Of a DNA stretch of 35,827 nt, positions 138 to 20,507 are shown one piece after another. The DNA is from a virus. Made by a program: the position numbers and the translations under genes. Below the pieces are notes generated by a model that worked only from the letters and a program-made list of their open reading frames with translations, was not told the DNA's origin and did no database searches. The stretch lies in the IMG/VR virus record IMGVR_UViG_3300044614_001383, positions 1-35,827 of that record; one strand, 5' to 3'. How positions within the stretch are numbered: position 1 is the first letter of the stretch; each line of letters starts with the position of its first letter.

Positions 138-913
138 GTTCTTTCTCGACGTCGGCGTTTTCGACGTCGGCGTTTTCAACTTCGGCATTTGACATACAGG
201 CCGGGGCGGTCACCGTCTCGGTCACGGGCGTCGAGGCTGTCTCTGCGGTCGGGTCGGTGGTCATCGTCGGCGAGGCGCTGGCCGTCGTTTCCGGCGTGGC
301 GGCGACCGGAGAGGTCGGGACGGTAGATGTCCAGCTCGGCGGCGCGGTCGATGTGCCCGTCGCCGGGGTGTCGGCCACGGCCCAAGCCGGCGATGTCACG
401 GTCATCACCAACGCCGTGCTCGCCGTCACCGGGGTGGTCGGCACGACCGCGCTTGGCGACGAGACGGTCGCCATCGGCTTCGATGTCGCCGTCACGGGCG
501 TTGCCGGGACGAGCGCGCTCGGCTCGGAGACGGTGCTCACCGGCACGCAGTTGGTGCCGGCTGGGGTGCAGGCGTCTGGCGCGGTGGGCGACGTGTTCGT
601 GGTCACGGTGGCGGTGCTGCCGGTCACGGGCGTGTCTGGCACGGCGCAGCTCGGGACGGCGGTGGCTGCCATCGGGTTCGATGTTGCGGTCACGGGCGTG
701 TCGGCCTCCGGTGCGATCGGGACGGTGGACTACTACTCGGATGTCACCATCCTGCCCGTGGGGCTGGCGGCGACGGGGGCCATAGGCAGGGCCAATGTTT
801 GGGGTAGAATAGATGGCGGTCCGGCTACGGCATGGACCGCTGCCAGCACGCCCTCTGCCCCGGCCTGGAATCCAGTTTCGGACACTCCCACGACGTGGGA
901 TCAAGCGGCTTGA
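134..913 (+). CDS. Repeat-rich tail/virion structural protein
   Basis: A 259-residue protein starting at GTG 134, coupled to the previous gene by a GTGA overlap. The N-terminus has three tandem FSTSA units, also visible as a tandem DNA repeat near 145-185. Residues from about 20 to 225 are degenerate repeats of roughly 30 residues built on a V-T-G-V, alanine/glycine, G-x-V pattern, which suggests a chain of small beta-rich modules. The C-terminal 35 residues are rich in Trp and Pro (AW, TW spacing), as in many phage virion proteins. It lies directly before the tail fibre, so a tail or appendage role is inferred. No enzymatic motif is seen. A TAGAAT-like sequence at 805-810 is probably only coding sequence. 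Confidence 0.7.
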   Translation: MSSFSTSAFSTSAFSTSAFDIQAGAVTVSVTGVEAVSAVGSVVIVGEALAVVSGVAATGEVGTVDVQLGGAVDVPVAGVSATAQAGDVTVITNAVLAVTGVVGTTALGDETVAIGFDVAVTGVAGTSALGSETVLTGTQLVPAGVQASGAVGDVFVVTVAVLPVTGVSGTAQLGTAVAAIGFDVAVTGVSASGAIGTVDYYSDVTILPVGLAATGAIGRANVWGRIDGGPATAWTAASTPSAPAWNPVSDTPTTWDQAA

Positions 914-17648: not shown

Positions 17649-17861
17649 ATGAGCAGGAAAGTCACGCCGCAACACGCGGCCATCATCTACGCCGTGGACA
17701 AAGCCGGGGGCCAGTCAGCCCTTGCCAGAGTCCTGCGGATCAGGCCACAGGCCGTGCAGAAGTGGTGCGCGCGCGGCAGCGTCCCGGCGCTGCGGGTGCT
17801 TGCGGTAGAGGCCGCGACCGGTGTATCACGCAAGGCCCTGCGGCCGGATCTCTACCCATGA
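17649..17861 (+). CDS. Cro/YdaS-like DNA-binding regulator
   Basis: A 70-residue protein from ATG 17649. The sequence GGQSALARVLRIRPQAVQKWCARG is a helix-turn-helix of the Cro/YdaS type, with the turn around VLRIRPQAV and the recognition helix in QAVQKWC. Its C-terminal part (LRVLAVEAATGVSRKALRPDLYP) is also typical of YdaS-like proteins. It faces the leftward operon across an A/T-rich control region with palindromes, so it likely controls the two early promoters. No partner CI repressor or integrase is present. It overlaps the primase gene by ATGA at 17858-17861. No strong ribosome site is visible. Confidence 0.8.
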   Translation: MSRKVTPQHAAIIYAVDKAGGQSALARVLRIRPQAVQKWCARGSVPALRVLAVEAATGVSRKALRPDLYP

Positions 17862-19912
17862 CCAAGCCAGACCTCACCGCCGTCGTGCCCGTCGAGCGCG
17901 TCCTCGAGCTCGCCAAACGCGTCCCCGTGTTCCCCTGCCGGCGGCGCGACGAGGCCGACCAGAGCGGCCGCACCCTGCGCGCCAAGAGCCCCCTCACCTC
18001 CAACGGATTCAAGGCCGCGACGCAAGACGAGGCCCAGATCAGGCGCTGGTGGAGCGAGCGCCCCGACGCCCTCGTCGGTGTCCCGACCGGCTCCACCACG
18101 CGCATCGTGGCCGTGGACTACGACCACAAGTCAGCCGGGCAGGCCGCCCAAGACTGGATCGCCGAGCACCAGGACGTGCTCATCTCCACCCGGGTACACC
18201 AAACCGGCGGCGGTAGCGGCGGCCGGCACTACCTCTTCAGCCTGCCGCCAGGCGTCAAGATCAGGGGCGGCGTCTCCGTCACCTTGGGCAAGGTGCGACG
18301 CGACGGGCTCGACATCCGCGCCGAGGGCGGCTACATCGTCTGGTGGCCGCTGCACTTCGGGCAGCAGGGGCCGGTCGGAGACATCCAGCCGCTCCCCGCC
18401 GGGCTCATCGACGAGCGCCGCATGGACCTCGAGCTGCCGGCCGAGGTCGCCAAGAAACTCCCGCCCAAGCCCGGCACCAGCCAAGACTTCCAGCGCGACC
18501 TGCCGCGGCTCACCGAGGCGCTCGCCTACATCGACCCGACCGGATACGACGCCTGGCTGATGGTCGGCATGGCGCTGCACCACGCCTCCGGCGGCGCAGA
18601 CGACGGACTCGAACTCTGGGACTCGTGGTCCTGCGGCGGCATCACCGGCGAACTCCCGGCCTCCTACGCCGGGCGCGCCGACATCGAGTACCGGTGGCAG
18701 TCCTTCCACCTCGACCGCGGCGGCGGCGTCACCCTCGGCAGCGTGTTCAACGCCGCCAAGGCGGGCGGCTGGACTCCCATCCCAGAGGCCGTGCGCATCG
18801 GCCCGCCGCCGCGCGATGAGCCGGCCCCAGACTACGCCGACGTTCCCGAGGCGCGCGGCATGGTCCGCAGCCTTGAGCCGGACGCTGCGGCGGTGACGCC
18901 GGGCGCCACGAACGCGACGGGACGCCGGCTCACGCTGCGCACCATCGGCGCCATCGTCGCCGAGCGGCGCGAGGCCACCTGGCTGATTCACAACGTGCTC
19001 GAGGCCAACGTGCTCGCCGTGCTCGCCGGGCCGCGCGCGAGCTTCAAGTCGTTCATCGCCCTCGACTGGGCCATGCGGATCGCCGTCGCCGGCAACCCGG
19101 TCGTCATCCTCTCGGGCGAGGGCGCAGGTCTCGGGCGGCGCGCCGAGGCATGGATGCAGGAGCACGGCAACGGGCGCCCCCTCAGCGAGCTGCGGCTGCT
19201 CGCCCTCGAATCGGTCGCCAACCTCAACGCCGAGGCGGACATGGGGTCGCTCCAGCAGGGCATCGACGAGGCCGGCATCCGCCCGGCGCTGATCATCGTG
19301 GACACCTTCAGCAAGTTCTCCGCCGGGCTCGACGAGAACTCGAACCAGGAGGTGGCCGAGTACCTCTCGAAGCTCACCGTCGGGCTGCGGGAGCGGTACA
19401 GCGCCACGGTATTGCTCGTCGCACACTCCGGCCACGGCGACAGCAAGCGCCCGCGAGGCGCGTCGGCGCTCATGGCCAACCCGGACGCCGAGTACATCGT
19501 CGAGCGGCCCGATGTCCAGGCGATGGTCGTGAACGTCACCCGCGAGCGGTTCAAGGATACCGCCAGCATGGCACCCATCGCCTACGAGGCCACCGAGGTG
19601 GACCTGGGGCGCGCCGACAAGTACGGCGAGCGGGTCAAGTCGCTGGTGATGCGCGAGACCGCCGCGGCGGGGCGCAAGGAGCGCGAGCCGATGCCGCAGG
19701 GCAAGGCACAGCGCCAGCTGCTCACGGCCCTGAGGGAGCGCCAGAAGGGCAGCGACTCGGAGATGATCTGGTCGCTGCCGGACCTGCGGCAGATCGGCAG
19801 GGAGGCGGCGATGAGCAAGACGACCGCCCACGCGGCCGCCGAGGCGCTGGCCTTTTCGCCCTTTATGACGGGCACCGTCGGGGGATACAAACTGTCGAGG
19901 GAGGGCAAGTAA
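17858..19912 (+). CDS. PrimPol primase-polymerase fused to RecA-fold helicase
   Basis: A 684-residue replication protein. Residues 10-180 form an archaeo-eukaryotic primase (PrimPol) domain: Asp87-x-Asp89 in VAVDYDH, the GGRH loop with His124, and Asp152 in GLDIRAEGGYIV. Residues of about 205-300 resemble a PriCT-type domain (RLTEALAYIDPTGYDAWLMVGMALH). Residues 375-600 are a RecA/AAA_25-type helicase with Walker A GPRASFKS (Lys397) and Walker B LIIVDT (Asp482). The C-terminal 70 residues look like a winged helix. Such fusions prime and unwind phage or plasmid DNA, and the PrimPol part may extend DNA itself. The start ATG 17858 overlaps the regulator's stop; upstream in-frame codons run through the control region. 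Confidence 0.9.
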   Translation: MTKPDLTAVVPVERVLELAKRVPVFPCRRRDEADQSGRTLRAKSPLTSNGFKAATQDEAQIRRWWSERPDALVGVPTGSTTRIVAVDYDHKSAGQAAQDWIAEHQDVLISTRVHQTGGGSGGRHYLFSLPPGVKIRGGVSVTLGKVRRDGLDIRAEGGYIVWWPLHFGQQGPVGDIQPLPAGLIDERRMDLELPAEVAKKLPPKPGTSQDFQRDLPRLTEALAYIDPTGYDAWLMVGMALHHASGGADDGLELWDSWSCGGITGELPASYAGRADIEYRWQSFHLDRGGGVTLGSVFNAAKAGGWTPIPEAVRIGPPPRDEPAPDYADVPEARGMVRSLEPDAAAVTPGATNATGRRLTLRTIGAIVAERREATWLIHNVLEANVLAVLAGPRASFKSFIALDWAMRIAVAGNPVVILSGEGAGLGRRAEAWMQEHGNGRPLSELRLLALESVANLNAEADMGSLQQGIDEAGIRPALIIVDTFSKFSAGLDENSNQEVAEYLSKLTVGLRERYSATVLLVAHSGHGDSKRPRGASALMANPDAEYIVERPDVQAMVVNVTRERFKDTASMAPIAYEATEVDLGRADKYGERVKSLVMRETAAAGRKEREPMPQGKAQRQLLTALRERQKGSDSEMIWSLPDLRQIGREAAMSKTTAHAAAEALAFSPFMTGTVGGYKLSREGK

Positions 19913-19914
19913 CT

Positions 19915-20220
19915 GTGGCAAAAATGAGACAGAATCAGGTACGAAAGGTACGAAAGGTACGAAATGTACCCGTTCGTACCGTACGAACCGGGTACGAAAG
20001 GTACGAGAGTCCTTTAGGACTCGTACCTTTTGTACCGTACCCGAGGTTGGAACTTGAACCAGCCAAGACCGAGACCGCCTTCGGCCGGAGGATGGTCGAG
20101 GGGCTCGGGGAGGAGGGGTTCAGGGTGGCCAAGACCCTGCAGGCTCACTTCGGCGCCAAGGTCGTCCACTACCAGGACGCCAAGGGCGAGGTCGGCACCG
20201 ACCCGAGGTGGCCGGCGTGA
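19915..20220 (+). CDS. Hypothetical protein whose 5' part overlaps an iteron cluster
   Basis: An open frame of 101 residues from GTG 19915 (GAGGGAGGG upstream) or ATG 19924. The first 45 codons run through a tandem and inverted repeat cluster and give a basic low-complexity peptide (VRKVRKVRNVPVRTVRTG). Their third positions are A/T-rich, unlike the rest of this genome. From about 20060 codon use becomes typical, and the last 50 residues (FGRRMVEGLGEEGFRVAKTLQAHFGAKVVHYQD) look like a real small protein. So either the gene begins at 19915 and embeds the repeats, or a shorter gene starts near TTG 20047 or ATG 20092 and the repeats are noncoding. No family is recognised. Confidence 0.45.
   Translation: MAKMRQNQVRKVRKVRNVPVRTVRTGYERYESPLGLVPFVPYPRLELEPAKTETAFGRRMVEGLGEEGFRVAKTLQAHFGAKVVHYQDAKGEVGTDPRWPA
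19938..20030. repeat. GGTACGAAA iterons with palindrome and long hairpin
   Basis: Three perfect tandem copies of the 9-mer GGTACGAAA occupy 19938-19964. A 17-base palindrome, GTTCGTAC-C-GTACGAAC, follows at 19972-19988. A further copy lies at 19991-19999, and the partial unit GGTACGAG begins at 20000. A hairpin follows: the arm AAAGGTACG-AG-AGTCC (19997-20012) pairs with GGACTCGTACCTTT (20017-20030) around a TTTA loop, with only a two-base bulge. All elements use the same GGTACGA core in both orientations. This is the structure expected of a binding site array for an initiator, regulator or segregation protein, right after the primase-helicase gene. Confidence 0.85.
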
Positions 20221-20507
20221 CCCAGCAGAAGATTGACCTAAACCATACCGGGCCGCTCGAGTGGATGGACGACGTGTTCTGGGACAAGGTTTCGACCGAC
20301 GGCCGGTTCTGTATCCGGGGGCAGCGGATTGGCGATAAGGTCGAGTACGTCGTCTGGCGGATGGGGCCGAACGGGAAGGTCATCCCGAGGTGGATCGGCG
20401 TGGCTCCCTCCTTCGCCGAGGCCGTCGAGCTCGCCGAGAACGACCGAGGCGGCAAGGCGCCGTCCATCAACCTGCTCTGGAAGGTGGCCGATGAGAAAGC
20501 CGGCTAA
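20217..20507 (+). CDS. Small hypothetical protein
   Basis: A 96-residue protein. GTG 20217 is chosen over GTG 20208 because GAGGTG lies six bases before it and because it makes a GTGA overlap with the preceding stop. The sequence is acidic and beta-rich with aromatic residues (LEWMDDVFWDKVSTDGRFCIRG, VEYVVWRMGPNGKVIPRWIG) and ends in a helix (SFAEAVELAENDRGG). No known motif is seen. Its position in the rightward operon between the primase and a nuclease suggests an accessory early function. It overlaps the following gene by 17 bases. Confidence 0.6.
   Translation: MTQQKIDLNHTGPLEWMDDVFWDKVSTDGRFCIRGQRIGDKVEYVVWRMGPNGKVIPRWIGVAPSFAEAVELAENDRGGKAPSINLLWKVADEKAG

Follow-up and report, generated by a model that had tools for sequence, protein, structure and literature searches.

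A candidate replication origin directly 3' of a phage PrimPol-helicase gene, with repeats that co-vary with the C-terminal winged helix of the encoded protein

Replication genes followed directly by a site needed for replication are known from several mobile elements. In pRN1, deletion and mutation data revealed that a stem-loop 3' of the gene for a PrimPol-helicase-winged-helix protein is needed for replication, and a similar 3' stem-loop was proposed for Bordetella phage BPP-1/BIP-1 (PMC4234260, PMC3869888). In gel shifts, the pRN1 protein ORF904 was not seen to bind the downstream region specifically (PMC4234260). In PICIs, the origin lies immediately 3' of the rep initiator gene (PMC6092414). 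In the Vibrio PLE, the DNA-binding domain of RepA and the origin co-vary, the modules were swapped at least twice, and an origin-directed nuclease was demonstrated as selective agent (PMC8263062).

The window, i.e. the whole stretch of DNA analyzed here, is a 35.8-kb IMG/VR virus record. Since it carries a terminase gene and an SU10-like portal gene, it represents a phage and not a satellite island of the PICI/SaPI kind. The end of a gene for a small Cro/YdaS-like protein overlaps the start of the replication gene by 4 bases. The replication protein matched PF09250 (PrimPol, E 3.9e-26), PF08707 (PriCT_2), and PF13481 (AAA_25, 5e-26); its helicase part is RepA-like, and no Pfam match to an SF3 helicase was found in it. 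Regarding pRN1-type features, PrimPol and a C-terminal winged helix are present, SF3 is absent, and a conserved stem-loop is located directly 3'. One feature of iteron origins, multiple short direct repeats adjoining the initiator gene, was found in the window and its relatives. The 134 bp between the stop codon of the replication gene and a TTG codon at 20047 are filled by repeats, referred to as words in the following. The features are:

17649..17861, plus strand: gene for a Cro/YdaS-like small DNA-binding protein (Pfam YdaS_toxin 2e-16, P22_Cro)
17858..19912, plus strand: gene for the replication protein of 684 amino acids, PrimPol-PriCT_2-RepA-like AAA_25 helicase-winged helix (Pfam)
19688..19909, plus strand: C-terminal winged-helix domain, residues 611-684 (AF2 model, PDB fold matches, co-variation with the array)
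19817..19852, plus strand: recognition helix, residues 654-665 (positions 654, 655, and 659 track the array word)
19938..19964, plus strand: three perfect tandem direct words GGTACGAAA (starts 19938, 19947, 19956)
19972..19988, no strand: 17-base palindrome GTTCGTACCGTACGAAC, an inverted word pair
19991..20008, plus strand: fourth word GGTACGAAA at 19991 and variant word GGTACGAGA at 20000
19997..20030, plus strand: hairpin of 14 pairs with a 2-base GA bulge and the loop TTTA (20013-20016)
20021..20043, minus strand: inverted words beyond the hairpin, namely GGTACAAAA at 20036-20028 and a partial word
20047..20220, plus strand: small downstream gene, 57 amino acids, start TTG in the window

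An earlier note on this DNA had described three perfect tandem 9-mers, a fourth copy, and a partial unit, all of which were present exactly at the places given, as were the 17-base palindrome of the same core (19972-19988) and the hairpin with its bulge (19997-20030). The 93-base cluster (19938-20030) that it had delimited contains all of these elements; the repeats run on slightly further, to about 20043. A switch in third-position composition, as described in that note, would be expected here since the stretch is intergenic. The left arm of the hairpin (19997-20012) overlaps the words, and the right arm occupies 20017-20030. Inverted copies of GGTACGAAA with one mismatch were found at 19972-19980 and 20028-20036. 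Allowing one mismatch at most, GGTACGAAA occurred nine times in the whole window compared to 3.0 times in shuffles (0 of 100 reached nine), and seven of these nine copies fall inside the array. Likewise, GGTACGA was present in 7 copies within 107 nt, while none of 5000 local shuffles had more than 5. A DNA-level search of the region against annotated phages returned short, chance-like matches only.

The locus was compared with 80 viral contigs related to it at 70-99% protein identity; most sequences in this set are metagenomic contigs, and many of them are closely related. An array was located at the same place past the stop codon in essentially all 80 contigs that read far enough, the exceptions being contigs that end early and L030. 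In L030, the usual stop codon of the replication gene is lost and the frame continues into the array; its word class was assigned by hand, as the lost stop codon had displaced the region read as array. In the common layout, three direct words are followed by inverted words, then by further direct words, the hairpin, and again inverted words. Five words, differing by lineage, were found, namely GGTACGAAA, TGTCCGAAAA, GGTCAAAAA, TGTTCGGATT (L035, L080, and L081), and TGTTGGAAAA, a class represented by the single contig L068. The word period is 9 bp in the GTAC class (19938-19964 in the window) and 10 bp in the GTCCGA class. Comparison of the contigs establishes both the architecture of the array and a coordinated change of the word, since direct and inverted copies within one array switch together. 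The hairpin arms also co-change between word classes: on average, 7.0 of 8 outer positions pair within a locus, compared to 2.2 of 8 across classes.

Which protein reads the array was addressed by mapping the word onto trees of the neighboring proteins. Counted as parsimony minima on quick trees, at least 10 word changes were required for the replication protein body (residues 1-600) and 4 for its last 72 residues (613-684), which is the minimum possible for five classes. The corresponding minima were 23 for the upstream Cro-like protein and 12, 18, and 20 for the next three downstream genes. The Cro-like protein is disfavored as the reader on account of its 23 changes. With body distance accounted for, the partial correlation between word difference and differences in residues 646-660 was 0.82, compared to a median of 0.00 over 15-residue segments; all five segments of residues 601-675 scored at least 0.67, and the other listed segments at most 0.26. 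In the sequences compared, co-variation with the word is thus exclusive to the winged helix.

For the last 74 residues, AF2 predicted with confidence a winged helix composed of three helices and a two-stranded wing (pLDDT 91.9), the full-length model being too poor for use outside the C-terminus. The PDB fold matches of this domain were generic winged helices (MCM, ORC, LexA, Fur, and GntR domains) with Z below 8, and no specific winged-helix family is therefore claimed. A search for sequence relatives with solved structure gave one chance-level match only. With word classes assigned from the DNA alone, residues 654/655/659, where the third (recognition) helix begins, agreed with the word in every one of the 88 distinct sequences. 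Specifically, KT..A/T at 654/655..659 corresponds to GTACGA, KQ..K/R to GTCAAA, RQ..D to GTCCGA, RS..E to TCCGGA, and RH..D to GTTGGA. Because the word tracks the winged helix, the recognition helix matches it throughout, and near-identical phages differ in the cassette only, the C-terminus of the replication protein itself very probably reads the array. The multi-site protein target anticipated in the earlier note is strongly supported with the C-terminal winged helix as its reader. Some linkage between winged helix and word is to be expected as the domain adjoins the array. However, the word does not track the downstream gene that lies equally close, which argues that linkage is not the whole cause.

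Several pairs of contigs differ in little more than this part of the locus. The protein body and the C-terminus are 98.2% and 47% identical in L031/L020, 98.0% and 57% in L058/L059, 97.5% and 63% in L070/L074, 99.1% and 80% in L035/L033, and 99.3% and 80% in L080/L077. The same was observed for L213/L219 (97.9% and 80.6%) on a different primase N-terminus. At the DNA level, swap pairs are ~85-100% identical upstream but ~40-90% identical across the winged helix and array; beyond the array, identity returns to ~87-100% in most pairs where both contigs reach that far. Conversely, L035 and L080 carry one cassette on two backbones, the backbones being 90% and the C-termini 98.4% identical. Cassettes have been exchanged, judging from these alignments, and winged helix plus array probably constitute a specificity cassette that recombines as a unit between near-identical phages; this forms part of the joint explanation that we favor. 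Contigs L210 and L213-L234 possess an N-terminus without a match to PrimPol or any other Pfam family, together with the same helicase, winged helix, and array, which represents a second module exchange in the replication gene. As these contigs keep the array despite their other N-terminus, the word is not determined by the primase module.

Taken together, the stretch 19938-20043 is likely a non-coding multi-site target of the upstream replication protein and a cis-acting replication origin 3' of the initiator gene. The C-terminal winged helix would read the words, which are iterons of 9-10 bp, in either orientation, using its recognition helix and probably also the wing, and physical binding to the words is what the analogous systems lead us to expect. 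The bound copies would bring the RepA-like helicase to the array, either by loading or by assembling it; the A+T-richer DNA and the hairpin would then open, and the primase domain would begin DNA synthesis there; by the same analogy, the hairpin may be the opening or priming site. That the array is most likely a replication origin follows from its layout and the known analogues (pRN1, PICIs, and PLE satellites), and the origin for the PrimPol-helicase proposed earlier is well supported by this analogy. The raised A+T content of the array (51%, compared to 33% for the contig) is compatible with an origin. In the window (position 19593) and in the L027 contig, the cumulative GC skew has its minimum no more than 350 bp from the array; in most other contigs, this minimum lies elsewhere.

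The alternative that fares best is that the winged helix reads the array as an operator or architectural site that controls downstream transcription or copy number, comparable to P4 crr or plasmid handcuffing, with initiation taking place elsewhere. A small gene cluster does lie downstream, palindromes with direct repeats are typical of operators, and co-variation identifies the reader, not the outcome. However, a promoter scan of 19800-20300 found none, and the array comes after, not before, the reader's own gene. Furthermore, the fusion of helicase and primase as well as the hairpin suit initiation better, and the pRN1 and PICI precedents have their origin at this very place. We therefore regard control of this kind as unlikely.

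Far less probable is a function at the RNA level, in which the hairpin and repeats would terminate or attenuate transcription between the replication gene and the downstream genes. One terminator-like match was found (GAGTCCTTTAGGACTC followed by GTACCTTTTG), but 0.6 such matches are expected by chance, which leaves the terminator scan at chance level, and a proper T tract is missing. No Rfam family reached its gathering score in the region, the one sub-threshold match being a chance hit to a microRNA family. Moreover, a function as RNA leaves unexplained why every direct and inverted word co-varies with the recognition helix.

The earlier note had named as alternative a basic VRK-repeat peptide encoded by the frame 19915-20220, with the DNA repeats as a by-product. 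In the GTAC group, this frame indeed remains open across the array, but relatives of the other word groups have the array, lack any VRK-like peptide, and begin the small gene past the array, so this reading, the least probable of all, was rejected. The pattern named in the note as refuting its main suggestion, conservation of the peptide with loss of the palindromes, is the opposite of what was found. The longer frame had no Pfam or PHROG match. In the sequences compared, the codon aligned with position 20047 is exclusively TTG, GTG (L012), or ATG (L027), each of which can initiate translation; upstream of the array, this frame offers no start codon in L027. For these reasons, the small gene most likely starts at TTG 20047, and the array is therefore intergenic (19913-20046). 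An earlier GTG at 19915 may serve as start in the GTAC group.

A comparable arrangement was also found beyond the close family, including cultured phages with other words. In Roseobacter phage CRP-823, an array with 10 copies of ACTACA and a hairpin lie directly past the gene, and the Roseobacter phages CRP-831 and CRP-821 have the same with the word GTATAA. Array and hairpin are likewise present in CRP-406, Salicola phage CGphi29, Burkholderia phage BcepGomr, and the proteobacterial contig L143. Between CRP-823 and CRP-831, identity is 95-100% for the helicase core, 73-76% for the C-terminal part, and 76-80% for the N-terminus, and their words differ. The main text of the paper describing the roseophages contains none of the terms 'repeat', 'iteron', and 'origin of replication'. 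A hairpin tip like CCCTTTAGGG is common to L311, L314, and L320 (Roseobacter phages) and L315 (BcepGomr), whose words differ. As such a tip is kept in very distant relatives despite differing words, a separate conserved role of the tip is suggested. No enriched words were detected past the gene in Mycobacterium phages Beem and Gadjet or in BFK20, Ivi, Vibrio 1244, GB2A, and ct76p945, all with RepA-like helicases; the array is therefore not universal among RepA-like phages. Scans of viral sequences with distant queries gave few matches, and a plasmid search only weak matches to RepA-like helicases.

Reading of a site behind the own gene by primase-helicase-winged-helix initiators had been proposed for pRN1 and BIP-1/BPP-1, and gel shifts failed for pRN1. 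Here, a natural domain-swap experiment has been performed at least ten times, providing matched pairs of protein and DNA whose differences fall mostly in one domain of ~70 residues and one site of ~110 bp. Such pairs predict which residues read which bases, and the cultured phages lend themselves to tests. They also raise the question of why phages keep altering their origin specificity, for which selection may be responsible. A broader reading, which we find as easy to doubt as to accept, is that these phages represent a widespread replicon class with an exchangeable winged-helix/iteron-hairpin key to origin specificity 3' of the primase-helicase gene, swapped many times within lineages under diversifying selection by co-infecting phages, satellites, or origin-targeting defences.

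An initiator with cognate iterons behind its own gene is a known kind of replicon. Relative to the literature, of which a part was covered, the RepA-like PrimPol variant, the correspondence between five words and the recognition helix, and the repeated cassette swaps appear to be new. A similar gene order is that of pRN1 (ORF56/ORF904), where a small DNA-binding gene and a PrimPol-helicase-winged-helix gene are likewise followed by a 3' stem-loop. However, pRN1 has an SF3 helicase and a long stem-loop without iterons, whereas the window has a RepA-like AAA_25 helicase and iterons that co-vary with the winged helix. Phage P4 alpha, as summarized in PMC4234260, is similar in being a primase-helicase whose winged-helix domain binds origin repeats, and differs in its Toprim-type primase and site layout. 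The pri-rep-ori module of PICI/SaPI shares the origin immediately 3' of the initiator, two sets of iterons, and an A+T-rich middle, but belongs to satellites and has an initiator of another family; the consulted passages of that paper mention no repeated swapping in nature (PMC6092414). RepA and ori of the Vibrio PLE resemble the locus in their co-varying, exchanged modules, the PLE iterons being semi-palindromic. In contrast to the phages studied here, PLE uses a RepA_N initiator with another DNA-binding domain, its ori is placed in a separate non-coding region, and fewer swaps are known (PMC8263062).
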